DNA of 64,000 nt from Quercus robur. Its lineage: Eukaryota; Streptophyta; Magnoliopsida; Fagales; Fagaceae. The stretch is from the NCBI RefSeq assembly GCF_932294415.1, contig NC_065544.1:28101210-28165209 (forward strand), given 5' to 3'. Numbering within the stretch: position 1 is the stretch's first letter; the number at the start of each line of letters is the position of its first letter. Of the stretch, positions 23,054 to 49,714 are shown piece after piece. The position numbers and the translations under genes were made by a program. The notes under the pieces are model-generated. The model had not been told where the DNA came from. It ran no database searches and was given only the letters and a program-made list of their open reading frames with translations.

Positions 23054-23054
23054 A

Positions 23055-24885: not shown

Positions 24886-27481
24886 CTAGGGGACCACAAC
24901 AAGGGGAATTGCCTGTAGGGGCTGGGCAGGTATGGCTGGCTCTTCGGCGTTAGTCATCTGAGTGCCAACCACGGGCTCAGCAACCTCTTTGGGTACCTCA
25001 GGATCCATACGCTGAGATGTTCCAATCACATCCTGAAGCTCTCCCTCTTTAAGCGGCTCGCCAGGAGAGGTGCCGACCTGTACGGTTTCCGACTGAGTGA
25101 CCCCTTCCTCGTGTTGGTCGTTCACAGCCATGGAACTGGTGGAGGTGGCCTCACGGATGGCTGTAGGGTAGAATATGTTCTCCGCTTTCCACAAATCGGA
25201 AGAAGCATCCACCCCAGCTCGCTTCAAGGCCTCTTCCCAAACCTGGGAGCAGTAAAGCCTGCATACTCCAGGAATCTGGGCTTTAAGGATGGCTTGGGTT
25301 TCAGCTACCCCCGCATTATAACCATCATCCTCGGCCGTTTCCTTGGTAGCCTCAGCCTTGTTTCTGGCAAACTCGGCCTCCCGCCTGGCCCTTAGGGCTT
25401 CGTCACGGGCATACTCCGCCACACCTTTGTCATGCTTTGCCGTGACCAATTTTTTATTTAAATCTTCGATCAGCTCCTTGGCTATTTGCAACTGATCCTC
25501 GGCTTCTAGCAAACGTTTTGTTTGATCCTCGGCCTATTTTTGAGCGCTAGCCAAACCCGCCGAGGCGTTGTCCCTCTCTCGGATAGCGTCTGTTAGGGCA
25601 GCCTTGGCCTTGGCGAGGTCCTCCTCAGAAGCTTGGAGAGTCCGCGCGGCCACTAAGCGTTTGGAGCGTTCATCCTTGACCGCCTTACTCTTATTATTCA
25701 CTTCTTCCTCCATCCTATATGTGGCCTGGAGAGCCTGTCAAGGGAAATAAATACATCGTGAATGACAGACCGGGAGTGAGAGTTAATAAAGTTTTAAGTT
25801 TCAAGAGCCTTACCATGCCCAAGTATCTCTTAGTACTGAGGAAGACCTCATGCATCCTCATTTTCCTCAATCCATCCACGTCAGTGGGAAGTAGCATGGT
25901 TCTCCCTAGTGCGTCTGCCACGTAGCCACCTTCGCCATCTCCAAGGTCCCTCATGGATGCAGTTTCCAACAATGGACCCCCGTGAAGCATTGGGGCAGGA
26001 AACCAGGCGCTTGGCGAGGACTGGGCCTCGATCCCCTTTCCCTTGCCTTAGGAAGATTGGACTTCAGTCTCTTTACCCTTGCTTTGGTGCCCAATCTTCA
26101 GTTGTTTTGCACGCGGGGCCTCCTCCCTCTCCTTAGAAGGTTGGGATTTTCCCCCATCCATGGTTTCCTTGCCCTTGGGGCTCCTTTTTCTCTTTGAATC
26201 AGTGCCTTCCGGCCGAGGAGGCAGAGTTTGTTGGGAAGGAACAGGAAGTTTGGGGTGGGGGGATGGTGGCTATGACATGGTGGCTGTGACTTGGTGGAAG
26301 ATGATCTAGTCTGGACATTCTGGGGCTGAGGTGGTGGGGAAGGAGCATTGGGTTGTGTCGTTCCCTGCGCATCTTTCCCTGTTTGACCCTCGAGGAGTTC
26401 GAGCAGGGTGATCGGGGGCTTTCTCTTGAGTCTCATCTCGGCTTGAGAAGATGTGCCTACTGATGACAACTCCGCCTTGGACAAGGCTAGGTCACCTATA
26501 TCACCAGAAGGATCCTCGGATTGGTTGGCTAGGTCAAACACCCCAAACCCTTCCTCTGGCTGATCTATCTCGCCTTCGTCCTCCGCTATTTGATGAGACG
26601 AGGAGGGGCCCACCAGTGGGATGCTCTCTGGGACAGATGGTACTTCGGAGATTAAAAATCCTGTCTCGACCACGGTGATTTTCGGAAGCCGAGGACGGCT
26701 GGCGCTGATCACGTGCCTAGCGTCGGCAAATGACTTCTAAACGGGAGGGTACCCTAATATTTTGTGAGCGACTCGGACTTGACCATCTCTGTTATTTACA
26801 AAAACTGCCACTTGTAGAACAGTCTCCAAGTCCACCCGGTTAACTAAGTGAAAATGCCGTTGATAAGCATGTGGATCTACAAAAGAAAAACACATATGCA
26901 TGGTTAGTTACCGAACCACATCAGATTAGAAATGGCTCAAAGGATCAGCACCTTTCCATTCCCTATACCCCACCTGGTTCTCCTTCTACTATGGGGCACG
27001 GATTGCCATCATGCCATTCACCGGAGACGATAAGGAAATCCTTGTTTAATCCCTTGTTGGAATCAGGGAGGCATTGGATTAATCGAACCCTTTCGTCCCT
27101 CGTCTTCATATAGTAGGATTTCCCCTTCAAATTTTGGAGATTATAGCACCAATTCACGTCATGGTGGGTCAGTCTTAACCCCATCTTTTCGTTTAAAGCG
27201 TTCACGCAACTCAGAATCCTAAACACGTTGCCGGCGCACTGGGTGGGGGCTAATCGGAAGTGCCTAAGGTAACCCCTCGTTACCGGCCCCATAGGGATTC
27301 TCATACCCCCCTCTACAAAGGCGAGGACGGGAATTATTACCGCGCCCGTTTCCCTCTTATAGTGCCACTCCCCCATCTTACAATGCCTCAGACTTACGTT
27401 GGGAGGAATCCTGTAATCGACGATAAACTTATTCATCGCCTCTTCAATATCGACTAATTTCCTCAGTCTCAATTTAGCCAT
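24886..27481 (-). pseudogene. Antisense three-exon gene of element A (putative Gypsy-type transposon protein, Transposase_28-like)
   Basis: Exon 1 is 27481-26974 (MAKLRLRKLVDIEEAMNKF start; conserved LTHHDVNW and VRLIQCLP), exon 2 is 26876-25814, exon 3 is 25734-24886. GT/AG sites match those of the copy in element B. Exon 1 resembles the 'putative gypsy type transposon' domain found across plant genomes; exon 2 has a Pro/Ser/Lys-rich low-complexity middle and a conserved end RYLGM; exon 3 is a long charged coiled coil (about residues 1-130 of the exon), then CRLYC and an acidic tail. Breaks: TAG at 26739-26737, a frameshift between about 26100 and 25990, and TAG at 25536-25534 (shared with B). 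It runs opposite to the LTRs. Function unknown. Confidence 0.75.
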
Positions 27482-27731
27482 CTCTATGATTTACTAAACG
27501 AACCCAACCTGCGACGGGAGAAGAAAGGGAACCAAAGAAAAATAAACCCAGAAAAGAAAAAGCACGAGTTAATGGAGGTAGGGAACCTACATAAAAGAAG
27601 AAAGACGCATCGGACAGGCTTTTTGTGCTGGAGATAGACTTGAGTTTGGGCGAAAGTTAAGATGAACCCAGAATATACGCGCTATAACTCTTAAGTGCAA
27701 AACTGAAGAGACAGATCCGTTCCAAAAAATC

Positions 27732-27825
27732 TTTTATACTTACTAGGGTAACTGCACAAATTTTCCCGCCCATAAAGACCAAGGGATCACCACCGTTCGA
27801 TCTTCATCATACCGTGGAACGTGGG
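27732..27825 (-). promoter_or_regulatory. Putative promoter of the antisense gene in element A
   Basis: Minus strand: a 36-nt block (27825-27790, starting CCCACGTTC and ending GGTGG) is followed 87 nt from its start by TATAAAA (27738-27732), about 250 nt before the exon 1 ATG. The block matches 27 of 36 positions, without gaps, in element B at 46814-46849. Confidence 0.55.
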
Positions 27826-27881
27826 AAACACAGAGCCGCCCATATTTAATAAGGCCACGTTTCGCCTTCCAAGGAACTGTC

Positions 27882-28566
27882 TATGATCTGGCCCGCGCTC
27901 TATTAGGGCTCAGGGCCCATGCCGAGGAGGGTGTGTGCCGAGGACGAATGATGAAAGGCCGAGGTGTCAAGGGGAACAGCTGAGGACGACCCTATCCTCG
28001 GCACTCCAGGATTTCAAGGGAAAAAACAACTTCTCAACGAAGGCTGCCCCCATAAAGCCCCCTGAAGGAGATACGAGTGGAATGGGACCCACGTGGGGGT
28101 ACGGTGCAAAACTGGTTCAAGGTAAATACGTCCCCTCCACATTAAATGCACCCGCCAGCGTCCTGACTATGTTAATGAGAAAAGACTCCTGGACAGGGTG
28201 ACTTCGATCATCGCAACTAACAGAAAGTAAGGAGGGACAGCTGATGGGACGGGTACAGAAGCAGGCACCTGCTTGACTAACAAGTGGAGGGCCAAGATCA
28301 ACCAAGAAGGGCTATATAATGTGAAGGTTAATGCCCCAAGAAACAGGCTGGGAAAAATAGCCAAAAACCAGAGCCTCCCAACCCGCCTCTTGGAGAAAAA
28401 CTCCCAGGGCGATCACGATTTAACTATGTATGAACACCACGAAAAACCCACCGTCTGGTGACTAAGGCCTAGCCTTTCAAACCCACGTTCTATAAATGAT
28501 ATTGTTTGGGCATTTTTACGTGCGAACCCAACACTATTATGGGTCGTTACAAATCGTGTCCTTATA
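27882..28566 (+). repeat. 3' LTR of element A, 5' end missing
   Basis: Matches the 5'LTR from its base 18 onward (CTATGATCTGGCCCGCGCTC) to GTCCTTATA. The initial TGTGGGGCCGGG is lost. Confidence 0.85.
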
Positions 28567-28571
28567 GTTTT

Positions 28572-29077
28572 AATTTAAAAGAAAAATAGGCATTATACAT
28601 CCTAATTTTAATGAGACTCGTATTGTCATAAAATTCATATGCATAATTGTCCCTCTTGTACCTCAAATTATAGTTTTCGAGTTTGTCAGTGAGCCAATAA
28701 CCCTTTTGTCTACCCATTACAAATGACAGAGGAAACCAGCTCACCCAAGACATAATACGCACCCATTATGAACTAGAGGCAGATTACACCATGAAAGGAT
28801 AACCAAAAAGAAAAAGAAAAAGATGAAATGCAAGGACACCTGGCATGTATAAGACAATTGGCAGATACATAGGCTGCTAGGTTGCTTCTCCTACTTGTAG
28901 CAAATCAAACAGGAAGCCAAACGGGTTTCTTCCCTCTTTAATATCATCATCTAACCAAAGATGAATCATGGCTGGTTAATCAAATAGGAGGTGAAGCAAT
29001 TGCATGACACAAACAATGGAGTGTAGTAAGTACGTGTAGGAGTACTTGTTCAAATAAGCATTACACCACAATGGTTA
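28572..29077. other. Spacer, no gene seen
   Basis: AT-rich sequence between element A and a MITE. The short minus frame at 28562-28762 shows no family features. Confidence 0.45.
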
Positions 29078-29448
29078 GAGCATCTCCAACAGGAGAGCTA
29101 AACACAAAATACTCTCTACTTTAAAGAGTAAACTCACAAAATAAGCTACTGTTCATTCTCTAATGGATTCTATATTCTGAATTTTTTTTTGGGCTCATGA
29201 ACAGTAGCTCATCAAGTCTGATGGGCTACTGTTCATTCTTCAAATATTTTTTTTCTATTATAATAATAAGGTATTGAATAAAAAAATGTTGGAAGATGTG
29301 TAGTTGTTAAAAAAAAATTAATGAAGAAATAATATTTAAATGAGATAAAAAATATGTTTGAATGTATATTTGAAAAAGTATGTAGCTAAAAGGTAAAAGT
29401 CACTATTTATTCTCCAAACAGTACAAAAATTTTGCATTAGAGATGCTC
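29078..29448. mobile_element. PIF/Harbinger (Tourist-like) MITE
   Basis: Ends are GAGCATCTCCAACAGG and, on the other strand, GAGCATCTCTAATGC, with the 3-bp TTA direct repeat at 29075-29077 and 29449-29451, the target type of PIF/Harbinger elements. No ORF. Confidence 0.75.
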
Positions 29449-30107
29449 TTAGTGCTTTTTGGCTTTTAGCAAGTACACCCACGTGAAACAACCAACAAAG
29501 GCAGCCCTAAGCCAATAATTAGATGAGTGATGAAGACGATAAGAGTAATCCTAATCCAAGAGAGAGTTATCGATGATCAAGACTAAGCGAAACTAAGATG
29601 AGAAGAGTATGAGACTGCGGCCAGTTCTATACCTCTGAAGAAGAAAAAAAATACAAAACAAAACGCTTGAGAAAAAAATAAATAAATAAAGAGATAAGCA
29701 ACAACAGGGAAGAATCAGATAAGAAAAAGATCATATTTGAAGGGATAGGAGATGATGCTCGAGTACCAAAGTGGATACAAGGAAAATCGAGTGAATTGAA
29801 ATTAACCAGGCAATCTCTGTATTGCAGCAATTTTCACCTGAAAGGGTTGATATATTTTTTCCCTTTTGACCTTAGTCCAATGGAAAAACAACAATGAGTT
29901 TAGAGGCCCAATGCACTACTTCACAATAATGTATAAACAAGTTGTCTAGATTATTAATTAATTAATTTCCATAAAAGGAATCTAGAATGAATTTTTATAT
30001 ACAAAATAGTAAACCAGAGATGAAATGGAGCCATCACCACACTAAAACCAACCAGATCATTGCCAACACACTTCCATTAGTCAGAGGTGGAGGGGGGCTC
30101 AAAATTC

Positions 30108-31268
30108 TCAGAAATGCAACTGCTTGCACTGTGTAACTGAAGCCTCTGCAGGACAATATGGACACTTAAATGCCCTCGTACCACTTTTTGACAACTTCAT
30201 GATCGATTGCTTGCAAAGAACATGCAAACATGGAAGCAGCATTGGCGGATTCTCGTCACTAGCTTGATCCCTACTCACAGGACAAACAAATATTGAATGA
30301 AACTGAAATTCCTTTCCCAATTCAACTGGCACTGGCAACTGTTTCATTGCTTGCCACTCCGGCTTCTTAGCAGCCATTACATTTGCCAACTTTAAAAGAG
30401 TAGGCAACCCCTCAACACCAGCTGCTATTGCCACACTCAATGGGCTCTCATAGGACTGCTCCAAGAGACTGCAGAATTGCCCAGTCAGTTCTTCAGTCAG
30501 ATTCTCCCATTGGGTTGGAGATGTCATATCAGCATATGGGGAACTGTCAAGCCTTCTTGCAAACAAGAGGCAAGCCATAAGCTTTTGGATCTCCTCCATG
30601 TGGAGGGTAGCAAAGGGAGCAAGGTAAGCTCTGGCATAATTGAGTGAATCAGCTAGGCTTCCTCTGCGTAAAATCTCCACAAACTGCAGCCTATGAAGTT
30701 TAAGCTCAATATTTGAACCATTCTGTTTGAGCTTCTCACGATTGATACAAGCCCACTTCAGAGCAGGCTCAAGATTCCCAACTCTCACAGCTTCAAGTAT
30801 CTGATGCATTTCAAAGAATTGAGATCTTATTGCAATTGCCTCTGGTTCTCCAGCCTCATTTAATATGCTATCTCCAAGATCAAACAAGCCTTGCCGGTAA
30901 AAATGGTTTGCAACAGTCTGATTCACAATGTGGAAGTCAAAATCAACATTTCTGTATGCCTTTGATATGTCAGGATTGAAGAATTTCTCTAGTAGTTTTG
31001 GGTACTTGCTAAGGTTTAAGTTTAGTTCCTTCTGTGACCCTTCTAATTGGTGGAGTGGGACAAGTGCATTGAGCTTGAGTTTGAGATCTGTGAGGATGGA
31101 CTTCTGATCAACAGGAGAGGTGGGGTCATCAGCTGACTGGATTTTTCCTAACGCCTGTTCAATTTCATGGCCAACTTGGTCAATAACTTCTTGGGATTTA
31201 GAAGAAGACAATTTTTGCTTTTTAGTAACACGCTCAAATGCATCTTTGATGGTAGTTAGCTCCATCAT
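30108..31268 (-). CDS. RMD5: RMD5/RMND5 homolog (GID/CTLH ubiquitin ligase RING-type subunit)
   Basis: One uninterrupted exon of 386 residues (385 if the second of the two ATGs is used). Order of domains: a Lys-rich N-terminal helix, LisH about 113-145 (TVANHFYRQGLFDLG), CTLH about 150-207, CRA about 205-300 and a C-terminal RING-like domain about 329-380 (CPVSRDQ, then LPCLHVLC and FKCPYCPAEASV). The RING is degenerate, lacking part of the zinc ligands, as usual for Rmd5/Gid2 proteins, which pair with a second RING subunit (Maea/Gid9) to give E3 activity in a large cytosolic/nuclear complex. The length is typical of plant members. A splice acceptor at 31289-31290 just upstream of the ATG points to a 5'UTR intron. 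The frame is intact. Confidence 0.93.
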   Translation of the reverse strand: MMELTTIKDAFERVTKKQKLSSSKSQEVIDQVGHEIEQALGKIQSADDPTSPVDQKSILTDLKLKLNALVPLHQLEGSQKELNLNLSKYPKLLEKFFNPDISKAYRNVDFDFHIVNQTVANHFYRQGLFDLGDSILNEAGEPEAIAIRSQFFEMHQILEAVRVGNLEPALKWACINREKLKQNGSNIELKLHRLQFVEILRRGSLADSLNYARAYLAPFATLHMEEIQKLMACLLFARRLDSSPYADMTSPTQWENLTEELTGQFCSLLEQSYESPLSVAIAAGVEGLPTLLKLANVMAAKKPEWQAMKQLPVPVELGKEFQFHSIFVCPVSRDQASDENPPMLLPCLHVLCKQSIMKLSKSGTRAFKCPYCPAEASVTQCKQLHF

Positions 31269-32477
31269 TCAGTTCAACTAACAAGCTCCTGCAAGAAAGT
31301 GCAGGCAAGTTTTCATGGTCCAAAAATGCAGATAAGTTGTGCAAAATTGATGTAGGAAACTGGAAACTATAAGTAAAATTATACATTTTCAGATGTAGCA
31401 TACTGTTTTAATTCTTTGGAAGAAATAACAAAGAATCCAATTCTATGTCAGTAACGAGATCATCAAGATATTTGCAAGCACCACAAGGTTATATATAAAG
31501 TGGTTAAAGGAATGGAGAGTGTATGGCATTTCTACATGATTCCCTTGGATTCATAAGGTTAAAGATTCACCCAGAAAAAGGTTCAAGAAAACCGCTTGTT
31601 CAATTGTTCACCTGCAGGTAACAATTAACATGGGCTCCTGCAGCTCACCTCAGCCTGCCTAGTCATCTGCTAAGCTCACTATGTGTTGGAAAATAAAAAT
31701 GGAATTTCCAGTCAGTACATGGGGCCCAAAGCCCATAAATCAATGTTTTTACAGCCAGAATTTTATGAGATGTAACTAGTTTTGCACTGGTTGTCAACCT
31801 ACTGTTCCTTCCACAGTCCTTGACTAAAAACAACAAATATCACACAAAGGCTCACTCAATTTGTTCTTGCCTTATACCTACTTGATCATTAAATGAACCT
31901 TTTGTGTGCATGTGTCTTACACTTTCTCTATGGTCATAGACCATGATTCACATTCTAAATTTAGACTAAGATTCAACACCAAATGTCAACATAGAAGACA
32001 CTTCTGCTTTCTTCCTGGTTTCAAAACCTTTTACAGTTGAATCTCTATAGTTCTAAATTTAGGCTAAGGTTCCAACACCAAATATCAAAATAGAAGACAT
32101 TTCTCCTTTCTTCTTGTTTTTGCAACCTCACAGGGTTGAATCTCTATATATATAAGCCCCAGCAGCCAATCAGAGATTTTTCTTCTCTTTCTCCCCCACC
32201 CCCCCCCCCCCACCCCCCAAAAAAAGAAAAAAGTTTATGCTGAAGGGCAATAGAACTTATAAAACCTTAAAGACAAACCCTAAGTAGATGGCCAATATAC
32301 ATGAGAAACATCTTATCAATATATATATATATACGTGTGTGTGTAATGAAAGATAGTAGGAGCAGAGGTAGAAAGAAGTCAGGAGTTATTAGCTAAATTA
32401 AGAATTCTCCTTCCACAGCCAAGGAAAAAAAAAGGAGGTACAGGAGGGAAGGTCAACTGAATGAAATCCTACATCCA

Positions 32478-32595
32478 CACCTACAAGAACTGTGTATCAA
32501 GAAATCCCAAGAGTAGAACTGGAGACCTCATGGGGTTTCCATGAGGCCAACCAATTGAGCTACCCTATGCAAGCACAGTTCAATGTTACCAGCAT
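32478..32595 (-). mobile_element. tRNA-derived SINE-like sequence
   Basis: Minus strand: GTAGCTCAATTGGTTGG fits an A box and CCAGTTCTACTC a B box about 45 nt later. The arm complementarity of a real tRNA is lacking. It lies in the inferred RMD5 5'UTR intron. Confidence 0.4.
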
Positions 32596-33374
32596 TAAAG
32601 ATGATTTTTTACACTTGGAGGAGTTTAAAGAATACAGGCAAGTTCTGACCATAAAATTAAGCAGAAGCACAGTCCAAAACCTTTGGATCCTGAAGCTTAA
32701 TCTCCAATTGAGGAGAGAATCCCTAAATTTTGGAGCGTTTATGACATGATTATTAGTTCTAAAAAATGTAGGCGGGGCCATATTGAACTGAATACAGTCA
32801 GCCTGCATTGTGATTACATATTTGATTTTTTTTATATATATATATCTCCAAACTAAAAGCCAATTGCAATACCCAAGATGCTCAAAATGCGTATACAACT
32901 AAGTTCACATGACCTTAAACACCCAAATCAATTGAATACATTGATCCAAAATCTAGTTCAATCAAAAGTTCAGGGTAGAAAGTTGCTTGATTTGTGGTAC
33001 AAATTCAATGAGAGTATGAGACACTAAAGTATGATAATGGAACTAAGGCTTGAGCTTGGCTTGTGTCTGTCCTCGTGCCATCACTCATAAAAAAGGATCA
33101 TTTTAACTTCTTGCCTCAACTTTATAGGAAACTTCCTCCTTTACTTAGCGAAAGTAAGTATAAAATGAAAATTCCTGATAACAATTAGTACTATCTAGAG
33201 ATACTAAAAGATCCTAAAAGCACCATTTAGCTCCTTACCCCCACTTTTTATGATCAAAACTTTTATTACTTCTAGACAGTAAGTCCAAAAGAAAACCTTT
33301 ATAGAGAAAATAAATGTAAAATGAGCAACTTAGACTTCAATGACTTCACTGCCAAACAAAGAATTCATCTTAGA

Positions 33375-33567
33375 GATCCATTCCTAACCTCAAGTAATTT
33401 TTCTTTAGAACTTTTTTGGATTGGTTGTTTGCCTTGCAAAACCAATCATTCTCTTCTATCTTTGATTTTCTTCATTCTTGTAATTTCTGTATTTGACCCC
33501 TGTACACTCCCTGTGTACTAGGGTGTCCCTTTTTGATATCAATAAATCTTATTACTTATCAAAAGAA
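33375..33567 (+). mobile_element. LINE 3' end insertion with 17-bp target duplication
   Basis: AAAGAATTCATCTTAGA occurs at 33358-33374 and again at 33568-33584. Between them is the 3'UTR end typical of plant L1 LINEs (ACTCCCTGTGTACTAGGGTG, then ATCAATAAATCTTATTAC and an A-rich tail). Heavily 5'-truncated. Confidence 0.75.
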
Positions 33568-34410
33568 AAAGAATTCATCTTAGATTAGTAACACCTAGAG
33601 ATTCTAAACCATCAACATAAGACATTAAAATTTGACTCCATGGTATTTTATTTTTCCCAATAATTTCCAATTTTAAGAAGTAAAGTGCATAACTACTAAC
33701 AAGCACATGACAAAGATTAGAAACCAGAGTAGCTAAGAAACAAAAGGAGAGATTATGTTATTGGTAATCATTGGGTGATAAAGGAAGAGTTCAGTGTGTG
33801 ACCTATTGTCATAGACATCTCTAAGATGCAAAAACCTAAGACGTTTTGCATGAGCGTTTGATGCAACCATGGAAGATTGATTTACTGTTACTTCACAACT
33901 TCATAGATTCCATGATTTATTTTGTGGCTCAAGTGCAATATCAAATTGGAACCTTTTTTTGTTTTTGTCTTGATAATTGGAACATCTTACATGGTTTTGA
34001 AGGTCAAGTCATTACCAGGTTAAAGTGGTTTTTAAATTGAGTAATTAGGCTCTTGGTTATAGGCATTTTTTATGTGGGGCGGATCCAGAATTTCCTAAAA
34101 TCTTTGTGCATAATTTTATTTTAGGGTCACTTCTTAACTATGTTGGCCTAGGTCATTCTGGAATTTCTAATTGTATAAGGAGTTAAGGACCAAAGTTTCA
34201 ACACCATATCAAAGGCCATTTCAGTTGGTACAGTAATACAGGCTAATACGTCCAAACTGTACGGTATTGACAACTATGATTAAGAGTATTTTATTGGGTT
34301 TTCTTAGGCCCTTAGATTACTAGTCAAATCAGGAGTTATAGTCCTAGTAGGTAAAGTAGAAGTTAATGAGTCTATATAAATCTATTTCATTATTTAGAAG
34401 AAAAATTCAG

Positions 34411-34660
34411 ACTTTAGCTAATGAGCTCTAGTTTAAATGTCATCTCCTTCCCTTGAAAGAGTAAGGTTAGAGGATGAAGTTATAGGTTTAAGATCTATTG
34501 GGCACATGCATAACTTAACAACAACAACAAAACCTAAGCCCAAAAGATTTGGGATTGGCTATGGATTCTCAACAAACTACATTGGGGTCAGCCAAATGTA
34601 TTCTTCTTTGACATTCTATCCTATCCAAGATCATATTCTCTATCACCTTTTTAATTAACA
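34411..34660 (+). mobile_element. SINE family S1 copy 3 followed by an Au-SINE-like tail
   Basis: 34411-34515 matches the units at 1266 and 2519 (ATGAGCTCTAGTTTAAATG to GGCACATGCATAAC). It is followed by AACAACAACAACAAAACC and AAGATTTGGGATTGGCTATG, a sequence type repeated on the other strand at about 43550-43630. Confidence 0.45.
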
Positions 34661-35913: not shown

Positions 35914-35961
<48 letters not shown>

Positions 35962-36944: not shown

Positions 36945-37782
36945 AAATGCAATAGTAATGCTATCAAATTTCATAAATGGTAGGTTATTATTTATTATCA
37001 TATGGTTGTAGGCTTACATTACTTTATTATTTAGTAGGCGAAAAACACATTTTGGTCCCTACATTTTGACCCGATTCCCGTTTTAGTCCCTAAGTTTTTT
37101 TTTTACCGCTTTTAGTCCCTTTCCAGAAAAACGGTTCCATTTTAGTCCCTGCCGTTACATCAGAAACGGATATTGCTGACGTGGCAAACGGCAAAGTCAA
37201 AAAATAATAAACTAATGTCCACGTGGCCTAAATTAATAATAAAAAATATTTTTTAATGCCACGTCAGCATCTAAATTAAAAAAATTAAAAACTCTCATAA
37301 AAAAAATCCTTAAATAAAAAAATTAATTTATTAATTCTAACTAAATAAAAAAAATTAAAAACTCTCATAAAAAAAAAAATCAAAAACAAATTTAAAACTA
37401 AACCCAGCAAGAACAACAAAACCCAGAACAAACTAAACCCAGCAAGAACAACAAATTTAAAACCCAGCAAAAACAAGATTAACAAAACACAAACACGGCA
37501 AATTTAAAACTCAAAAAATTAAATTCAAACCCATATTTGCAGAGAGCCACATTCCTCGTCGGTCATCCTCAAAAACTCGACCTTTTTTCATTTGTTTTGT
37601 TTCACACCCACGTTGTTTTTGTTTTTTTATTTTTTTTTATTTTTAATATTCAACCGACAGGCAAATTTAAAACCCACGGAAGAGAAAACTCAATTTGAAA
37701 CTCAAACACGGCAAATTTAAAACTCAATTTTTGCTCAGATCCATGGAAGAGAAAACCCACAAGCTTTCTCTCTAAATACTGC

Positions 37783-37952
37783 AATAGCCTGGTTGAACGA
37801 GACAGGCAAGAATCGGAGCGATATGTTCCCGAACACAACCGACACGCAGAACACGAGGCTCAGCGCCGCGATCTTAAAGAACTGAACCCGATCGTGAAGG
37901 AGTACCATGCTGCGACGAGCCCGATCGTGAAGAATCTGCTTGTACCTTGCAT
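37783..37952 (-). pseudogene. Captured fragment of a sugar-phosphate/phosphate translocator gene
   Basis: Inside the Pack-MULE, minus strand. A first frame reads [18 protein letters not shown], the N-terminus of plant nucleotide-sugar/triose-phosphate translocator family proteins (At3g10290/At5g04160 type). After an internal deletion, a second frame reads [16 protein letters not shown] and [15 protein letters not shown], the fourth-exon-like transmembrane region of the same family. The two pieces are out of frame with each other and the C-terminal part is missing. It is more GC-rich than its surroundings. Not a working transporter. Confidence 0.8.
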
Positions 37953-38129
37953 TTTCGTTGATGGGTCTTGATCCGACGGCTCTGAATTTGCCTTCAACAA
38001 CAACCAAAAAAAAGATTGAATTTTTTTTTTTTTTATAAATATATTTTCAGTGAGTAATCAGAAAATGGTGAGGTTTAGTATAAATGGAAGGAGATAATAA
38101 TAGATCTGGGCATTGGAGTATTTAGAGAG

Positions 38130-38420
38130 AAAGCTTGTGGGTTTATGTTCTTGCTGGGTTTATGAAAAAGGTCGAGTTTATGTTCTTGCTGGGTTATGTT
38201 CTTACTGGGTTTATGTTCTTGCTGGGTTTATGAAAAAGGTCGAGTTTATGTTCTTGCTGGGTTTATGAAAAAGGTCGAGTTTATGTTCTTGCTGGGTTTA
38301 TGTTCTTGCTGGGTTTAGTTCTTGCTGGGTTTATGTTCTTGCTGGGTTTAGTTTGTTCTTGCTGGGTTTAGTTCTTTCTAGGTTTTGTTGTTCTTGCTGG
38401 GTTTAGTTTTAAATTTGTTT
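38130..38420 (+). repeat. Minisatellite in the right arm of the Pack-MULE
   Basis: Irregular repeats of GTTTATGTTCTTGCTGG with GAAAAAGGTCGA between some units. Complementary shorter runs (AACCCAGCAAGAAC) lie in the left arm at about 37400-37470. Confidence 0.8.
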
Positions 38421-38910
38421 TTGATTTTTTTTTTTTGATGAGAGTTTTTAATTTTTTTTATTTAGTTAGAATTAATAAATTAATTTTTTTATTTAAGGCT
38501 TTTTTTTTATGAGAGTTTTTAATTTTTTTAATTTAGATGCTGACGTGGCATTAAAAAATATTTTTTATTATTAATTTAGGCCACGTGGACATTAGTTTAT
38601 TATTTTTTGACTTTGCCATTTGCCACGTCAACAATATCCGTTTCTGATGTAACGGCAGGGACTAAAATGGAACCGTTTTTCTGGAGAGGGACTAAAAGCG
38701 GTAAAAAAAAAACTTAGGGACTAAAACGGGAATCGGGTCAAAATGTAGGGACCTAAATGTGTTTTTTCCTATTTAGTATTATTAACTTGCTACATGAGAT
38801 AGTAGTGAAAACTATTGTCAATTTAGGCGTATATAGATTTATTGTAAATGCAAATTGACGATGGTTACAAATTAAAATGGCAATGAAGGTGGGGAATTTG
38901 AATTCTAAGG

Positions 38911-39106: not shown

Positions 39107-39108
39107 CT

Positions 39109-40356: not shown

Positions 40357-40525
40357 GAGAAATGCTATGTCCACAACAAATATTGAGTGACAAATTGTTA
40401 CTGATTATTATTGTTGGGACAAAAAGGTAATCTCAAGGGTAGGTTCAAATTTGAACTAATAAAAACTAACCACCTATGATTTGTTGTGAAAATATTGTAA
40501 AAATATTGTAGACGTAGCACTTCTC
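40357..40525. mobile_element. MITE (family 2), copy 2
   Basis: Ends GAGAAATGCTATGTCCAC and, on the other strand, GAGAAGTGCTACGTCTAC. Both arms hold CACAACAAAT/ATTTGTTGTG. Related to 18739-18923. Confidence 0.65.
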
Positions 40526-40938
40526 GTTACAGTATAATTATTTCCTCCACCTACCATGCATCATAAAGAGAAGCAATATATCGATGCTCAGCTTAAACAG
40601 AGGGGAAAAACTGAATGATTGGCATTTCAAAAATTGATATAATCAGTGGGTTAATTACAAAGAATCATTCAGTCAGCTATCAGAACAATTATCTGATAGC
40701 CAGACCAAGCTCACATTAGCATTTCTGGTTGGTTTCTACTATGCCGGATACCTATTACTATCTATGCAGCATAGACAAAAAAAATTCCCTGAGTGAATTA
40801 CAGTATGAATAAAAAGAAAAGCCTCCAAAGTGACCACCTGTTTCTATCTGAAATGTACAGCAACAACATGGTCAGGAAGGTCCCTCTGATTTCTAAAGAA
40901 TGGTCTAATTGGAGTAAGAGAAACATGTTATGAAACAC

Positions 40939-43900
40939 TTATTTCCGGGTCTGTTCCACCTTGGCTCGAATCTTCTGTTCCAACACAGACTTATCTGTCT
41001 CGAGGTCAAACATCCTATTAAGAGCACGCATATTCTCAAGTATCTCATCCAGAGTACGTGCATCATCACATCTCAAGTTCTCCATTGGACCACGAAGAAG
41101 CTTTTTTACTAAAGCCACACTAAGATCATAAATAGCTTTTTTATTCTTCTCAGAGATATTATCACCTATCTTTGATAAACACTTATTAAACTCGGCATCC
41201 CTGATCCTTTCAAAGTTGCCTTTTAATCTCTTGATGGTGGGAACAGTCTCAAGGGAATCTTTCCAAGCTTCGAATTTATTCAATTCCTCCAGTAGTATTG
41301 TCTGAGCCTCCATAGCTTTTCGCTGTCTATCCTCCTTGTTAGCTTCTACAACTTCCTTGAGGTCATCCACATTGTACACAACTGCAGTCTTAAGTTCTGA
41401 GACACTCTGTTCCACATTCCTAGGAACGGAGATATCAATAAAAAGCCGCCTTCCAATTTCAGGTTGCACAGTGGGGAGCATTTCTACATGCTCTTTCAAG
41501 AATAATGGGGTCTCTGATGCAGTGCAGGTAAAAACTACATCAGCTTCTGAAGCACAAGATAGCATTTCTGATAAGGGTTTGTAGATGATTTCAACATCCT
41601 TGATCTCTTCCCGAATGGCAGCAACTCTCTCTTCAGTTCTGTTCAGAACAACCATGTTTTTACACCCTTTTGCAGCCAAGTGCTTAATCACAAGCTTCCC
41701 CATCTTTCCAGCTCCAACCACTAGCACTCTGGCAGTAGCATAAGAAGACCCTGTAAGCTTCATTAAGGCAAGCTCCACGGCAGCAGCACTGACAGAAACA
41801 GACCCTGATGATATGTTCGTCTCACTTCTAACCCGCTTTCCAACAGTGATTGCATGCTTGAATAGCCCACTGATTTTCCTATCAAAGCCAGATACTCCTT
41901 GCCCAACTTTAACAACTTGTTTTACCTGAGCAAGGATTTGACCTTCCCCTAGAACAAGAGAATTAAGCCCAGCAGCTACTTCAAACAGATGCTGAGTGGC
42001 ATCTTTGTTATACAACACAAATTGGTGCTGACAGAGCTCAGAAACAGGAACCCCACTTATCTGCAGCAAACAAAAGATAAAACTCGTTATGTCACCCCCA
42101 CCACCTTTTTTTTTTTGGAATGAGAAAACTAAATATGGTTAATTGGCAGCTATGTAAAGTAGAAAATCAGAGTACTCTTCATATAGACGCTGAAATAGAC
42201 AGACATTAATGGGTAGTTTGACACTTATGTTCATTAAAAAACCCTAGGAAACAAATACTTTGTAGCGGCAACAACCACATATATATAATTAAGAATGGTT
42301 GAGTTTTTATCCAATTAGACTCCACAATTGGGCCCATGGAAAGGCTATCAAATTAACAAGAGACATTGCAGTAGCCACCCACGAGAAGTTACATTATATG
42401 AAATTAACTCTTATCTCCCTTGGTTTCTTATTTTTCTTGTTTCTGTTGCCTTGACCCCTTTCTTTCTGGGTGGGTGGGGGGAAGTTACATGCTTCCTCTC
42501 TACACAGAAAATGAACATTACTTACTAGAGCTAAAAAATTACCTTTGACATCCATTCAGTAACTTCTTTAACCCCACGATGCTGAGACAGAGCCACGACA
42601 TATACTTCCATTCGGTTACATGTACTAAGGACAGCAGCTTCTTCAATATGGTTCATAGCACAGAGTTCGCTAATTGCTTGAGGCCACTGTGCTTCTGGGA
42701 TGGCTAGTTTTTCACGTATCTCAACCGATGCAGTGTGAACATTAAGCCCTATGACCGCAAGGCAGCTCCTTTCCTTTGTATATCCTAACAGAAAAGGTAA
42801 TAACAGGTCAACAAACGACTCCATCTTAAAATTACAAGAAGACCTTTTCAGGAGGAAACAAAAAGTCACAATTCCTCTTCAACTCCTTCCTAGGAGACAA
42901 TTGTCTACACATTTTGGAAGAAGCAGAGATACAACATATTATTATCACTACCCATGACACAAAATTGGACAAGAAAACAAGCCAACATGGTCACAAATCA
43001 CTCATTCACTGTCCCTATAATTTCAAATCTTATTACAATCAGTTCAGGCAGTCATACAAACCTATACTTTGGAAATTTCTCCAATTGTGTGATGTGACAC
43101 CAGTTCAAACTAACAAAATGCCACCTGCCAAAGTAATAGATGCCTCTCAATTCTCTATAAGCATCAGACACTAGTCAAAACAACACATCTACCCACAAAT
43201 CTTTGCAACCAATTTCAATCTAGGAAATCAGAAAACTACACCTCTCTAATATTACGATTTTCATGTGATCCATCATTAGAAATATTCAATTTACAAACTT
43301 CAACTGCATTGTACAATACCATTTACATTTTGGTCGGCATTAGTTTCACTTAACTATTGACATAGCTATATGGATCTTCAACAAACTCCCAGCAAGGATG
43401 GCATTAGATGTTAAGAAATTCTCATCTTCAACAACCTTAATCCATATTGGGCCACCGCACCCAACTTTGGATCAAAATTATCAAGGAATCATCCCTCATA
43501 ATCAAACTCATGAAACATTGTTCACACATTAGTCAACTAGATCTCATCCTTACTAGTTGGTTGAGATCCATAGCTGTCTCCAAAATGTTGGGCCCAAAAG
43601 TTTGGTGGTTGTTGTTGTTGTTATTGTTTCACACGTTAAACAAGAGTTGGCTGCAAATGTTGACTTTCAGATGTAAAAACCAGTCAAATTCTCAACATTT
43701 CATGCTGACCTTACATAAACCCCAGTTTTATTTTATATTTAAAGAGAAAAAAAAAAAAAAAAAAAAAAGGCTTTGTAAAGTCAGCATTGAACCTTTTTTT
43801 TTTTTTTTTTTTTTACAAGAATCTCATCAAACCAAAGAACAAATTAAACACATAATGGTTGACAAATAAAAAACAAAAAAACAATGGCTATTCACATGAA

Positions 43901-44346
43901 TACGTATATATAGAAAATACCCAATTGCTCTATTCAACCCAGAAGCCTTTCTTACTAGAATTTTCACCGAACAATTAAACATAATATAATTAAAAATATA
44001 AAAATTTGATACTAGAACAAAAACCCAACTTAAAGGGGGAAAAAAAACGTAAGAATTAGATTAGAGTTAATGTGGACTCACTGTTAGCAGGGGAGGACTT
44101 GAGCAATTGGAGAGGCGAAGCAGTGAAGGCCTTGGAATCGTTGTTGTCATTTGGGAACACAACCTGGCACCTAGTATTCAGAGAGGGTTTTTTTCTCTGG
44201 GAAACAAGGGACCTGCTGATCTTAATGGGTTTGTAGAAGATCGAAACTTGGGAAGGAGAGGCCGAAGAAGAAAATGACGTGAAAGTTGCGTTCTTGGCAA
44301 TCGGAGATGGAAGGAGAGAAGCGATTAAGGCAGTCTCAGCCGCCAT
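40939..44346 (-). CDS. HEMA: Glutamyl-tRNA reductase, chloroplastic (HEMA)
   Basis: Three exons: 44346-44082, 42784-42543 and 42060-40939, with GT/AG sites and consistent phase, giving 542 residues, the usual length of plant HEMA proteins. The enzyme reduces glutamyl-tRNA(Glu) with NADPH to glutamate-1-semialdehyde, the first committed and rate-limiting step of 5-aminolevulinate, heme and chlorophyll synthesis in the plastid stroma. Residues 1 to about 60 are Ser-rich and poor in acids, as in a chloroplast transit peptide. The catalytic cysteine sits in [11 protein letters not shown] (Cys144). The NADPH domain shows [13 protein letters not shown], and the C-terminal dimerisation domain is intact. 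An in-frame ATG at 44397 would add 17 residues; I prefer 44346 because MAAETA resembles known starts. Plant HEMA genes typically have this exon number. Confidence 0.96.
43545..43635 (-). mobile_element. Au-SINE-like fragment in HEMA intron 1
   Basis: Minus strand AACAACAACAACCACCAAAC then TTTTGG and AGCTATGGATCTCAACC, the same layout as 34520-34590 on the plus strand. Confidence 0.35.
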
Positions 44347-44440
44347 TGATGAAGATGAAGATGAATGTGAAAGAGCTGAAAGACACGATGAATGCATAGA
44401 TCGAAATGCTCATATATCATAATAATATAAGAATAGTCAT

Positions 44441-44450
44441 TATATATAAA
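44441..44450 (-). promoter_or_regulatory. HEMA: TATA box of HEMA
   Basis: Minus strand TTTATATATA lies about 100 nt upstream of the preferred ATG. The inferred transcription start is near 44410, which leaves the upstream in-frame ATG at 44397 only about 10 nt from the cap. Confidence 0.5.
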
Positions 44451-45877
44451 GAGACTTTAGAGAGAGAGAGAATAGAAAGAAAAATTCAAAGTAAGAATGG
44501 GTTAGGAATTAGGAACATGCGTTTGGTGCGAGAGATTTGACCAAAGCCAATATGATAGTAATAGTAGTACTGCTAGTAGATGCACGTTTTGATCATTCAA
44601 GGAAAACAAAAACAAAAAAACAAAAGTAGAAGTTTTGATGTTGTCAACAAATTTTGGGAAGACGCGTTTTGTCCACACGACAGGACAAGCACCACCGGCC
44701 AACTACCACTACGGCTCGGTTTTTTTTTTTTTTTTTTTTAAATAGTTTCAATTTAAGATATGGGTTTTTAATAATTACTTTTTATCAGTAAATTAAGAAT
44801 TAAAATTTTACCTTTTTGTTGATATTTTCTGAATGAAAAATTACCCAAAAAAAAAAACCCTCTTAACAAGTTTCCTCTACAACAATATTATGAGGGAGCT
44901 GTGAGAATTTGAAGGAGCCAAACTTGTTTTTACTTTTCATAATAATTAAATTTTACCCCTTTATTTTATTTTTTTATAATTAAATTCCGTATTAGATTTT
45001 TAAAGGATTTTCTAAGGATTAGATTTAGAGGTATCGTAATAGCAGACGTCATAATTCTGACTTTATCTTAATATATATATTTTTAACGCTTTTTTACACA
45101 TTGAAAATGCCAAATCCAATTCGTATTGTTGTCTCTTCAACAAAAAATAGTCATAAAAAGATTGCAACTTCTTAACTCATTATTATTTGTGTTTTTTTTT
45201 TTCTGGTAAAATTTACTCTTAAAGTTTGGGAGTAATTGAAATTTGGGTAAATTACATATTTGGTCCCTATCCTTTACATTTTATTTCAATTTAGTCCCTA
45301 ACTTTTCAATGACATGTCAATTTAGTCTCTGCCATCATCTCTTGGATGGAAAAGTCTGACGTGTCAAACAGCCTAAATAAAGTAAAAAAAAAAATTGCCA
45401 CATCAATTGCCACCTGGACTAACATATCAGTTTTTTTTTTTTTGGGTAAAGAGCACGTCAGTTTTTTTTTTTAGAAAACCCAAATCAAATCTTTTTAATT
45501 TGATTTCAGAATTTTGTTTATTTCATTAAACAGGACAATCATAGTCCCATATAAAACACGCTCCCTAAAATCCAAATCTGTTCCTTTTCTATTCCAGCGA
45601 GTATAGAATTGCTTGAAAATCTGGAAAAAAAAAGTGTCATAAAAAGACCTTTAATGACATTAAGTTAAAGCAAAAGCAGATGAGTAGTTTTAAACAAAAT
45701 TATGGCTGCACTACTACTTCCAATTTACCTATCATGGAAGATATTGTGCTCTTACACACTAGTATTATCCTCCATATATATGCTGTCATTGATCAAAGAC
45801 TAATAACAGCTAAGTTTCTTAGCTAGAAAATTTCAAACATCATTCCAAGGTATTAAAGAAAATTAAGAAATAAACAC
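44451..45877. other. Spacer with one MULE-type terminal fragment
   Basis: Part 45245-45480 has GGGTAAATTACATATTTGGTC and repeated TTTAGTCCCT/TTTAGTCTCT with GACGTGTCA, the style of a plant Mutator-like terminus; the other end is not visible. The rest is AT-rich with no gene. The short minus frame at 44502-44702 shows no family features. Confidence 0.5.
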
Positions 45878-46661
45878 TGTAAGGACTAGATTTGTAACGA
45901 CCCAAAAATGATATTGGATTCGCACGTAAAAAGGCCTAAACAATATAATTTGTAGAGCGTGGGTGTTCAAGAACTAGATTAACTTCCGTAGGATAGAAAG
46001 ATTCAACCTCACGTTTATTGATGGATCAGAGCTGATACAACAATCGGTTTTTCTTTGAAATAGATACAGTTCTCTTGTTTTTCACGTTTTCTTCCTGAGT
46101 TTTCTCTTTTTTTTCTTCTCTATGTTCCGATCCCCTTCCTGCATGCCCTTTTTTCACGTTATATACCGACCTCTTTATTCCATTTTCACCACACACGTGT
46201 AGGTTGGGTTTAGGGGATCTCTTTCTGTCCCATCTAACATCTTCTGGAACCTCCTTCTAGTAGCTGTAAGGCTGCTTCATCACTGTTCAGGCATCACTTC
46301 CACATTAATGTGGTCAGAGAGTTGGTTGAGAGACAATTAATGCAGAGGCAGCTGTTACCGTAGATATTTGTTTGCCCTCTCTCTCTTCCACCTTTGGCCC
46401 CTTATCCCATATTGAGTGGTGACGTAGCTTCGAGATCTGTTTGTTACCTGATGGCGTCCTGATCGTCCTCAGACTCGTATTGCCGAGAAGGGTTTTGTCC
46501 TCGGACGAATACTGAACTCCCCTTTCATGATATTCCCTCTTCCCTTCGTTTGGTTACCCTTTTAATCTGATATGGGCCTCCTCGGGCAGGTTTGCCTCCT
46601 CGGATGGGCCACAGGCCCAATTAACTTGCCTTTAATAGTTCTAGTGACTGACCGGCCCCCA
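45878..46661 (-). repeat. 3' LTR of element B
   Basis: On the minus strand it begins TGGGGGCCGGTC and ends GTCCTTACA (784 bp). TATATAA is at 46165-46159. It shares CCACATTAATGTGGAAGTGA and other blocks with the lone LTR at 13896. Confidence 0.85.
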
Positions 46662-46813
46662 TAATAACCCCTCAAAATCTTGCTTTTCGATTCCTCGGGA
46701 GAAAAGATAGATTTTGACGTCATGAGCCCATACCCAGTTATGTTTGGAGGCATGCTTCTGACGCTTCAGTATCCCGATTCTGGCAGCATTAAATTTTGGC
46801 GTCGCCCTTGTCT

Positions 46814-46910
46814 CCCACGTTCGATTGTGAGATGCAAATCAAATGGTGGAGGGCCTGTCTCGTTTCATGAGCGAGGATTTTACCGCTCATAATTTCTGCA
46901 CGACTATAAA
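46814..46910 (+). promoter_or_regulatory. Putative promoter of the antisense gene in element B
   Basis: A 36-nt block 46814-46849 (CCCACGTTC...GGTGG) is followed 91 nt from its start by TATAAA (46905-46910), about 215 nt before the ATG at 47127. It has the same arrangement as in element A (87 nt). A possible 5'UTR intron runs from CCT|GTAAGTG (about 47056) to CCTTTAG (about 47122). Confidence 0.55.
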
Positions 46911-47126
46911 GGCGTTCTCAAATTAATTCTCTTTCTTACCTTTGGTGACCACACAGCTCCAGAGCTCATACACTGAACCTGCCTTTCTCCTTTTTTATCA
47001 TTTTCCTAGCGCTTACAAATAATCATGTCTTGTCCGAGGTCCCTCTTTTAAACCTGTAAGTGTTCTTAAAATCTTTACCACTTTTATCTTAAATTAGTTA
47101 AGTTCTCTTCTAAATCCTTTAGAAAA

Positions 47127-49714
47127 ATGGGGAAAAAGAAGAGTCCATTTCGGTGTCTAGTTGAGTCCGAGGAAGGTATTAGAAATTTCCGCTCTAAGTA
47201 CGGGATTCCCTCCACGGTGGGTATGAGATATGCAGCCCAAGGGGAATGGGTTGACGCTAGGCAAACAGGGGAAGTGGTTATTCCCATGATTGCCTTTATA
47301 GAAGGCGGGATGACCATCCCCATGGGTAGTATTACTAGGAGCTACCTTAGTTTCTTTAGGCTATCCCCTACCCAGTGCGCCCCAAATATGTTTAGAGTTC
47401 TGGGAAGCATAGATGCCTTGAACAAGAGAATGGACCTAAAACTGACCCACCATGATGTGAATTGGGTGTACAATCTCCACCACCTGAAAGGGCAGGGGTA
47501 TTATCTTAGATCGAGATACCCCGAGGTGAGGCTAATCCAATGCCTTCCCACCTCGAACAAGAACCTAAAGGAGGATTTCCTTATCTTCTCCGGGGAATGG
47601 CATAATGGTCTGCCATGCCCCACGGTGGAAGGAGTACCAGGTGGGAGCATAGTTAGAGATTCATAACATTTGGTTTTTGTATACTTTTTTTTTTTTTTTT
47701 TTTTTTGTCTCGTGATTCCTACCTCTAACAACGCTTTGCTTCAACTCAATGGTTCTGCAGATAGACGTTACACAAAGCCCAACCTTAGGTTAGTCAATAA
47801 GGCGAGCTTGGATAAGGTATTGAAAGCTGAGATATACATGAACGAAGCTGACGGCCAGCTCCGGGCAGTACATTTGATCCTCGGCTATACCCCCCTATCA
47901 TCCGCTTTTCAGGCGCCGAAATACGTTATTAGAGCCCGCGATCCTCGGCTTCACCGTATCAGTGTTGCCTATCCAGGGTTCATAGTCCTAGAAGGTATTC
48001 CACTTCCCCAATACACATCCCGTTCCGGGCCTCTTTTCGTGGCCAAAATCTCGGCAGGAGCCTTTTCATCCCAGCTTACCCCCCGAGAAGAGGAAGTAGA
48101 AGAGAGAAAGGAAGAGGAAAAAGACGAGGAAGAAGTTGTAGAGGTCTCTGAAACCTCGGACGATTTTGGGATTTTTTATCAATCCATAAACTCCGGGGAA
48201 GATCCTGACGTAATGGGGATACAGAGAAAACCCCAAAGAAGCTTGCTGGAGTTGATGGAAGGTCAGCCGGGAAAGAGTGCGCCGGCAAAATCAACACAAT
48301 CCCAAGCTCCATCTCTTCTCGCAAGGTCTCCTCCTCCTGCCCCTCGCCAGCCCTCTCGTCAACCTCCTCAGCCAGCCCATCCTGACGCTGCCGAGTTAAA
48401 AAGGCGCAGGGAACAAAAGGGCAAGGAGGTGGCAAACATTGGCAAATCTTATCCTACTCGCGAGGAGGATACCCAACGAGCTGCCAAGCAGCAAAAAACC
48501 AGGCACCAAGTCACGCGAGGCCAAGAGAGATCTGAGTCCCAACTTTCAGAGCCACAAGCATGGTTGCCAACACCTATGCACAGAGGAGAGCCCCTACGAG
48601 ATGATGCATTTATAAGGGACTTCAACGGCGGCATAGGGTGCCACGTAGCTTCGGCCATAGAGGAAGCCTTATTGCTCCCAAAAGATATGGCCGAACTAAA
48701 GAATATGAAGAAGAATGAACTCATCCTTGACAATAAAAGATACTTGGGCATGGTAAGAAGTTGACTTTTTGCTCTTTCCTTTCACGATCATTAGTAACCA
48801 ATATGTACTTTTTACTGACTATAGTGTTAACTTCTTTTCTTCAGATTATCCAAAATACTTTCAAGCTGGATGAGATTCTCAATATCTGCTCCGATTAGCT
48901 AGATGATGAAAGGAAGAGACGGACAACGGATGTACAGACCTTGTCCAAATTTGAACAGGACTTGGCCGATGTAAAGAAAAAGTTACATGCTGAAGAGCAA
49001 GCTCGCAAGAGCCCCGAATCAGCACTAGAAGGTTATCAAAAGTAGGTCGAGGACCAGGGGAATCACTTGCGTGAGGCGAATGCAGAACTGAAGAAGGCCC
49101 AGGAACAAGTCCTAACTCTTAAGAAGCACTCAGAGGAAACCCAAAAGCTAAGGGAGCGAGCTGAAAAGTCCAGGGAGGAAGCCGAGAAAGCAAGAACCAA
49201 GGCCAAACGAGCAATGAATGAAGTTGAGCAGAGAGGCTATGAGATTGGTATAGTTGAGACGGAGGAGACTTGAAAGCCGAGGTTCCGGCGGTGTGCCGTA
49301 TCTACTGCACAAAAACTTGGGATGAGGCCCTTAACCGTGTTGGGGTGAAGGCTTCATCGGAGCTACGTAAACTAGAGAACGTATTCTATCCTGAGGCGAT
49401 CCGTCCCTCAGCTCTTCCACCCCCTCAAGCTGAAGCTCCTCCTTCAGTCATAAACCCCAACGAGGAGGTTTTGCCTTGCAGTTTTCCCCTCTCTGGCCAT
49501 CCAGAATCAGCTAAAGGGGGAATTGTCCCACCAGGAGCTTCCTCGGACAAGACCGCAACTGCTTCGGAGGCAGAGACGGCCTCCCAAAGTTTTCAACAGG
49601 CCTACAGTCTTGCAAACTGGGGGCGTTACTAAGGATAAAGAGAAAGTTACTACTTCGGAGGCTGACAAATCTGCCAACCAGGACCCAAAGATCCAATTCA
49701 AATCGAAAAAGTAG
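47127..49714 (+). pseudogene. Antisense three-exon gene of element B (Transposase_28-like, coiled coil)
   Basis: Exon 1 47127-47640 (conserved GEWVDARQTGEVVIP, LTHHDVNW and VRLIQCLP), exon 2 47761-48752 (LRLVNKASLDKVLKAE, an acidic Glu/Val tract, a Pro-rich tract, ending RYLGM), exon 3 from 48845 to about 49714 (charged coiled coil, CRIYC, acidic tail). Splice sites and phases match element A's copy. Breaks: TAG at 48896-48898, TAG at 49043-49045 (the same codon 67 of exon 3 as in A), a 1-base frame change near 49262 and another near 49600. It is transcribed towards pol, opposite to the element's own genes. The product's role is unknown; the exon 1 domain is widespread in plant Gypsy-related loci. 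Confidence 0.75.

Follow-up and report, generated by a model that had tools for sequence, protein, structure and literature searches.

A probable three-exon antisense gene in two Retand-type Gypsy elements of Quercus robur, with signs of selection in a family lacking gag-pol

An antisense open reading frame (ORF) with a TRP28 (Transposase_28) domain, located before the 3' long terminal repeat (LTR), is a hallmark of the Retand lineage of LTR retrotransposons (Vicient 2025, PMC11963269; this and the other papers cited here are drawn on in part). Smc-type domains also occur on Retand antisense ORFs (PMC11963269), and the function of these ORFs is described as an open question (PMC7264820, PMC11963269). 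We analyzed a 64,000-nucleotide stretch of Quercus robur DNA (contig NC_065544.1, positions 28,101,210 to 28,165,209; hereafter the window), in which two Gypsy elements, A and B, each carry a predicted antisense gene that resembles the published Retand TRP28 ORFs, which are antisense between pol and the 3' LTR, Transposase_28-like, frequently accompanied by tandem arrays, and in some clusters non-autonomous (PMC11963269). The initial annotation of the window had pointed to antisense ORFs of Tat-type elements such as Grande, which is true but too narrow, the ORF being a feature of the whole Retand lineage. The survey counts separate ORFs of at least 600 nt, whereas in A and B the corresponding pieces are predicted to be exons of one gene. 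Within PMC11963269, a word search finds 'intron', 'splicing' and 'coiled' nowhere and 'spliced' in the reference list only, and no selection test is reported in parts 1-3 of 5; because its elements were found by reverse transcriptase (RT), a gag-pol-less family such as A would go unseen. In the literature covered, outside which lie Grande 2013 and the 2011 aORF survey, no title or abstract describes a multi-exon Retand antisense gene or its selection in a gag-pol-less family, and the novelty of the splicing point is provisional.

The two genes run against the direction of their elements, from 27481 to 24886 (minus strand) in A and from 47127 to 49714 (plus strand) in B, with the same three exons and identical splice phases, as the initial annotation had proposed. 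Its A gene end needed correction: 24886 is the end of a premature TAG, and the homologous C-terminus, AKLKK-stop, lies at 24774-24772 (compare FKSKK-stop of B, 49712). The A gene consists of exon 1 (26974-27481), intron 1 (26877-26973, 97 nt, GTGGG...TAG), exon 2 (25814-26876, 1063 nt, frame disturbed in the window copy), intron 2 (25735-25813, 79 nt, GTAAG...CAG) and exon 3 (24772-25734, up to the stop homologous to the B end, interrupted by premature TAGs at 25536 and 24888 and by another stop at 24837), and the B gene of exon 1 (47127-47640), intron 1 (47641-47760, 120 nt), exon 2 (47761-48752, 992 nt, open in the window copy), intron 2 (48753-48844, 92 nt) and exon 3 (48845-49714, broken by TAGs at 48896 and 49043 and by a frameshift before 49271). 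In both genes the exon 1 donor reads CAG/GTGGG in phase 1 (A 26974, exon of 508 nt; B 47640, exon of 514 nt), RYLGM/GTAAG closes exon 2 (A 25814, B 48752), and exon 3 opens in phase 0 (A 25734, B 48845). Both window copies are pseudogenised, A by stops and an altered frame in exon 2 as well as the TAGs of exon 3, and B by its two TAGs and frameshift, all in exon 3. Of the 14 other A copies keeping exon 2 (see below), 13 have it at 1049 nt and one at 1052 nt. Nucleotide identity between the window genes is 64% of alignment columns in exon 1 (maximum of 20 shuffles, 40%), 47% in exon 2 (maximum 37%) and 44% in exon 3 (maximum 37%), with the introns not clearly above shuffles (37%, maximum 36%, and 39%, maximum 44%). 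At the protein level, identity is 59% for exon 1 of the window copies, 127/318 for exon 2 of a fetched A copy and window B (best of 10 shuffles, 72), and 93/269 for exon 3 of fetched A and B copies (best of 10 shuffles, 61).

The antisense orientation is established in B by the RT/RNase H/integrase ORFs on the minus strand (63098-59059), and in A by TTGGCGCCGTCTGTGGGAA, which we take to be a Tat-type primer-binding site (PBS), on the plus strand immediately after the left LTR. Between the 3' LTR and each gene lies a presumed promoter region (A 27482-27877, minus strand; B 46660-47126, plus strand) with TATAAA 257 nt (A) or 222 nt (B) before the ATG. The box reads TATAAA in 8/14 and TATAAG in 6/14 of the A copies listed, and TATAAA in 14/16 and TACAAA in 2/16 of the B copies listed; this position, 222-257 nt ahead of the ATG and not within the LTR, is compatible with the gene having a promoter of its own, as is reported for Grande (PMC7264820).

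By profile comparison, exon 1 is related to Transposase_28 (PF04195) and is not formally a member: the check suggested in the initial annotation returned matches for A (E 5.7e-5, 23.7 bits) and B (E 8.2e-5, 23.2 bits), both under the gathering cut-off of 26.2 bits. Exon 2 has a conserved start, a basic patch (KRKR/KRRR) and the RYLGM end, with a variable linker between. For exon 3, where a coiled coil had been proposed, a helix of 85 residues is predicted (pLDDT mostly 65-93, from the window A fragment 25533-24889 alone), with heptad-range periodicity at p 0.01 in the A copy and 0.06 in the B copy, and followed by a conserved block around VCRxYC and YPxAIR. A search against solved structures gave a single match at E 1.5, which was disregarded.

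The copies compared come from a search of the genome assembly (786 Mb, 42 contigs) with exon 1, in which the best 150 of 5,998 first-look candidates for A and the best 150 of 6,118 for B were taken, these figures being lower bounds; the matches listed for this search and for the junction search described below are spread over 12 contigs. Recent capture of a host gene by both elements, suggested by the host-gene-like introns and TATA box, is extremely improbable given thousands of first-look candidates (6,118 and 5,998), a position that is the published lineage hallmark, and the lack of TRP28 similarity outside transposable elements in the account of PMC11963269. The A sample comprised the window copy and 16 copies drawn from about every fourth place down the ranking to about the sixtieth, and the B sample the window copy and the 20 best-ranked copies after it; 15 A and 21 B copies entered the alignments, with the A copies L043 and L051, which have lost exon sequence, left out. 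In L043, intron 1 leads into sequence like that downstream of the gene, as if T-rich tracts bounded a deletion.

Both introns are present in all 15 A and 21 B copies, and the splice sites, whose loss in other copies the initial annotation had named as a test, are kept in nearly all of them: the GT of donor 1 in 15/15 A and 21/21 B copies, the AG of acceptor 1 in 15/15 and 20/21, the GT of donor 2 in 14/15 and 21/21, and the AG of acceptor 2 in 15/15 and 19/21. Stronger evidence for splicing than these dinucleotides comes from indels. Distinct indels number 5 in exons versus 7 in introns in A (Fisher p 1e-5) and 14 versus 17 in B (p 5e-11), the introns being more than 10 times shorter than the exons and exon indels more than 10-fold fewer per base; exon 1 has none in either set. 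The length of B intron 1 ranges from 108 to 137 nt among copies, mainly through T-tract changes. On these patterns the locus very probably represents a real, conserved spliced gene. Intron 1 can be read through in frame in the B copies L031, L035 and L036, so that exon 1 lies within mechanical ORFs of 460, 561 and 564 aa.

Selection was assessed on the two-allele sites of the 15 A and 21 B copies, where each variant was scored as shared or confined to one copy (one-copy) and as nonsynonymous (N) or synonymous (S); for A exon 3 the count ends near codon 283. Under a context-aware expectation derived from non-coding sequence, neutral N/S is 2.2-2.4 in every exon. Shared N/S for exons 1, 2 and 3 is 0.47, 0.78 and 1.6 in A (16/34, 65/83 and 96/60) and 0.34, 1.11 and 1.26 in B (31/90, 134/121 and 156/124), all six values lying below neutral (binomial p 5e-24 to 0.016). 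One-copy variants in B give 2.26, 2.67 and 1.81 and fit neutrality (p 0.48, 0.82 and 0.13), and in both families shared N/S differs significantly from one-copy N/S in exons 1 and 2. Pairwise comparison of exon 1 between subfamilies yields a nonsynonymous divergence (dN) of 0.049 and a synonymous divergence (dS) of 0.96 in B (dN/dS 0.05), and 0.042 and 0.24 in A (dN/dS 0.18); with the introns as yardstick (A 0.16-0.20, B 0.29-0.53) the exon 1 ratios are weaker and still below 1. Purifying selection on the gene, strongest in exon 1, is demonstrated at the level of sequence, and the dN/dS near 1 that the initial annotation had set as a refuting outcome was not found, shared N/S and pairwise dN/dS both being low among these copies chosen by exon 1 similarity.

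This gene is the only recognized gene of element A, which consists of the 5' LTR (22369-23051, plus strand, 97.5% identical over 683 nt to 27882-28564), the PBS-like site TTGGCGCCGTCTGTGGGAA with a leader of ~200 nt (23052-23285, plus strand) abutting a tandem array of 72/76 nt units (23280-24394) at the gag-pol-less junction, the gene, and the paired 3' LTR (27882-28564, plus strand); inspection of its ends by eye found no clear polypurine tract (PPT) or target-site duplication. With an LTR pair, a PBS, no gag-pol and several copies of the same structure, it qualifies as a non-autonomous LTR retrotransposon. The absence of gag-pol from A, already claimed in the initial annotation, proved more general than claimed there, A being a multi-copy gag-pol-less family and not a single wreck. 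The PBS-leader-array junction without gag-pol occurs, with an identity of at least 89%, in at least 40 places of the genome counting the window (best 40 of 2,004 candidates); 12 of these 40, again including the window, lie 3.0-6.7 kb from one of the best 150 A exon 1 places, with strand and side as expected, and wrong-strand or wrong-side pairs between the two sets number 0. Eight A copies were read for ~3.8 kb past the gene: in seven, the order is array, leader, PBS, LTR, and the B protease, RT/RNase H and integrase have no match in this stretch, and the eighth (L060, beyond the truncated L051) contains none of array, leader, PBS and LTR. The family layout is LTR-PBS-leader-array-gene-LTR. 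The seven gag-pol-less copies comprise four of subfamily A2 and three of A1, and the leader common to all suggests that gag-pol was lost before the A1/A2 split, so that variation among A copies arose later. Constraint on the gene thus seems, from the sequences, to have continued after the loss. Selection on the gene in the gag-pol-less family is accordingly judged likely, and the low shared N/S there supports the earlier suggestion that retention implies a useful gene.

Element B retains pol (59059-63098, minus strand), with a weak protease match, RT, RNase H, a second RNase H and integrase. The ORF at 61764-60220 contains RVT_1, RT_RNaseH_2 (161-259) and RVT_3 (345-462), with rve next at 59868-59062. 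B thus has an additional RNase H domain (aRH) preceding integrase, as expected of a member of the Retand lineage, the order RNase H, aRH, integrase being that given for Ogre and Retand (PMC6317226). The antisense gene of B agrees with the Retand hallmark in position, orientation and array, while its Transposase_28 domain scores under the curated cut-off. The 3' LTR occupies 45878-46659 (minus strand, 96.9% over 782 nt to L061:488-1268), the partner (5') LTR lies ~480 nt past the right end of the window, and the tandem array (58319-58962) has units of 80 nt. In the stretch compared, an array of 80-nt period follows the gene in 15/20 fetched B copies, with other or partial repeats in 4 and none in 1.

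On balance, these features are probably best explained by an accessory spliced antisense gene of Retand-type (Tat) Gypsy elements that may act as a regulator. Transcription would start from the stretch with the TATA box, immediately internal to the 3' LTR, and splicing would follow. Since the introns lie in the antisense strand, the packaged sense RNA would be without their splice signals, and by the logic of retrotransposition the introns would survive each round. The product would be a nuclear protein that binds nucleic acid, associates with itself and favours its own family, its likeliest action being to keep the DNA of the family transcribed (regulation or anti-silencing) rather than to catalyze transposition; a role in transcription is preferred because a family lacking gag-pol would otherwise gain little by conserving the gene. 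The assignment of a regulatory or anti-silencing role on its own family is tentative.

Alternatively, the protein may assist the gag-pol proteins in transposition, for example in nuclear import of the pre-integration complex, with the non-autonomous A retaining a version of its own to match its RNA or cDNA. The conserved basic patch of exon 2 would suit such a role, as would the separation of A and B exon 1 into two clades in the exon 1 tree (support 100/100), and the Grande antisense protein is reported to be nuclear, with a role around the pre-integration complex suggested (PMC7264820). However, a helper shared in trans need not be encoded by a non-autonomous element, and contact with gag-pol proteins is only supposed, making this a somewhat unlikely explanation. 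In the same tree, L037 and L048, which have A2-type introns, fall outside the cluster of the other five, suggesting recombination.

A further alternative is that antisense transcription itself matters, through dsRNA, siRNA or interference with the sense RNA, and that the protein is incidental, a possibility raised in PMC7264820. The 400 nt upstream of the gene are less divergent than the introns between subfamilies (A1 versus A2, 0.10 against 0.16-0.20; B, 0.27 against 0.29-0.53), but not within A1 (0.088 against 0.073-0.086). Such a role would need no selection on amino acids, reading frame or splice sites, all of which appear to be selected here, and it is considered very unlikely.

Several observations count against the proposed gene and its regulatory role. 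All copies were picked for similarity to the exon 1 protein, a choice that favours conserved versions of exon 1. Inner intron dinucleotides are often as invariant as the splice sites (36% in A intron 1, 53% in A intron 2 and 44% in B intron 2, compared with 12% in B intron 1), so that dinucleotide conservation alone is telling only for B intron 1. One-copy N/S in A is also under neutral (1.45, 1.62 and 1.75 for exons 1-3, p 0.006-0.044), and the one-copy and shared classes are thus not clean. In exon 3, shared and one-copy N/S do not differ significantly in A (1.6 versus 1.75, p 0.73) or B (p 0.087). A1 and A2 are separated by only a small and mixed set of near-fixed differences (exon 1, 0 N and 1 S; total, 25 N and 28 S), so that it is the shared-variant counts and pairwise rates that carry the A result. 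Some stop, frameshift or deletion interrupts 16/17 A and 21/21 B copies, and three A copies (L039, L041 and L042) have common late exon 3 stops (codons 142, 169, 174, 203 and 235), which suggest a single frameshift inherited by copies still able to multiply and imply that the C-terminus is partly dispensable. The fold model of exon 1 was useless (pLDDT 37.7) and was not interpreted.

The breakage of both window copies and of nearly all others, together with the nearly neutral shared variants of A exon 3 (N/S 1.6), could also be expected of a passive relic without function, spread from few recent source elements and given little time to decay. This is highly improbable, as youth lowers N and S equally, whereas exon 1 shared N/S is 0.34-0.47 against a neutral value of about 2.3; the B subfamilies combine an exon 1 dS of 0.96 with a dN of 0.049; and exon 2, which played no part in copy choice and yet shows constraint (0.78 and 1.11), is free of the exon 1 ascertainment bias.

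Among the stops, codon 66 of exon 3 reads TAG in both window genes as well as in one more A copy and one more B copy. The reading of this TAG as a shared readthrough or ancestral stop was rejected, CAG>TAG being the commonest stop change and recurring at many codons (12/39 stops in A, 39/70 in B). Single C>T or G>A changes account for 26/39 stops in A and 54/70 in B, and the CAG>TAG changes probably reflect recurrent mutation at methylated CHG sites.

A more specific form of the regulatory explanation joins the gene and the adjoining array, with CCGAGGA sites in LTRs and arrays, into a self-recognition module, in which a spliced coiled-coil DNA-binding anti-silencing protein would locate members of its family by the repeats, in the manner of VANC and the VANDAL elements. 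If this were true, a gag-pol-less family would persist on the module alone, borrowing enzymes and supplying its own licence for transcription; this form is considered unlikely. Outside the arrays, no 7-mer of A and B is commoner than CCGAGGA (24 occurrences against 2.2 expected), which is also present in 94/123 A units and 106/160 B units. As the binding site of the protein it was rejected, being not specific in the control, and it is kept only as a lead: the copia element nested in B has its own 7-mer of equal z-score (13.8), the core is barely better kept than the rest of the unit (mismatch 0.069 versus 0.077 in A, 0.062 versus 0.096 in B), the word is also top in the flank 1-22300 (6 seen), and A and B array units are alike beyond the core too.

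This copia-type element (49907-58136, minus strand) occupies the interval between gene and array in B, with an LTR pair at 49907-51006 and 57024-58136 (97.8%). It carries a gag-like ORF of 660 aa (Retrotran_gag_2) and, on the same strand, a Transposase_32 ORF of 342 aa, and no pol domain was found in these two ORFs or in 8 more scanned of its 27 ORFs of at least 70 aa; this element too may be non-autonomous and equipped with an additional gene. Words of the CGCGACT and CTCGCGG type head its list of over-represented 7-mers (z about 13). Elsewhere, the window contains a large inverted repeat (37041-38766, arms of ~435 nt, 96% complementary), tandem duplications at 8274-9983 (~860 nt), 19760-21153 (~700 nt) and 12407-12788 (~190 nt), and host-gene-like ORFs on the minus strand at 42138-40939 and 31268-30108, presumably encoding a glutamyl-tRNA reductase and a CTLH/RanBPM-type protein, respectively.

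For the antisense ORFs catalogued separately (Transposase_28, Smc-like and others), the predicted gene of A and B, in which they are exons of one gene, suggests that they may be so elsewhere. Moreover, a multi-copy family that has the antisense gene as its only recognized gene, and appears to keep it constrained, suggests that the gene benefits its carrier and does not only accompany gag-pol. A viral counterpart is HBZ, a protein of the leucine-zipper type. HBZ of human T-cell leukaemia virus type 1 (HTLV-1) is encoded by an antisense, spliced gene (PMC1459196) and is nuclear (PMC11963269); the A/B gene is likewise antisense and, by prediction, spliced, but its TATA box is outside the LTR, whereas HTLV-I antisense transcripts start in the 3' LTR (PMC1459196), and no homology is claimed. 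VANC of the VANDAL elements is also element-encoded by an intron-containing gene, has conserved and variable parts, and binds non-coding tandem repeats of VANDAL elements (PMC5735166, PMC10398659). VANDALs are a different type of element and encode a transposase, and DUF1985/DUF287 gave no match at E up to 1 in the A/B exons scanned (exon 1 of A and B, exon 2 of B and the exon 3 fragment of A). Grande gene23, which is antisense, has its own upstream promoter and encodes a nuclear protein (PMC7264820), is similar by description only. Ogre is, like A and B, an intron-containing member of the Tat clade (PMC6317226); in A and B, by contrast, the introns are in the antisense gene, illustrating how an intron-bearing gene may live in a retrotransposon by lying antisense to the RNA that is reverse-transcribed.

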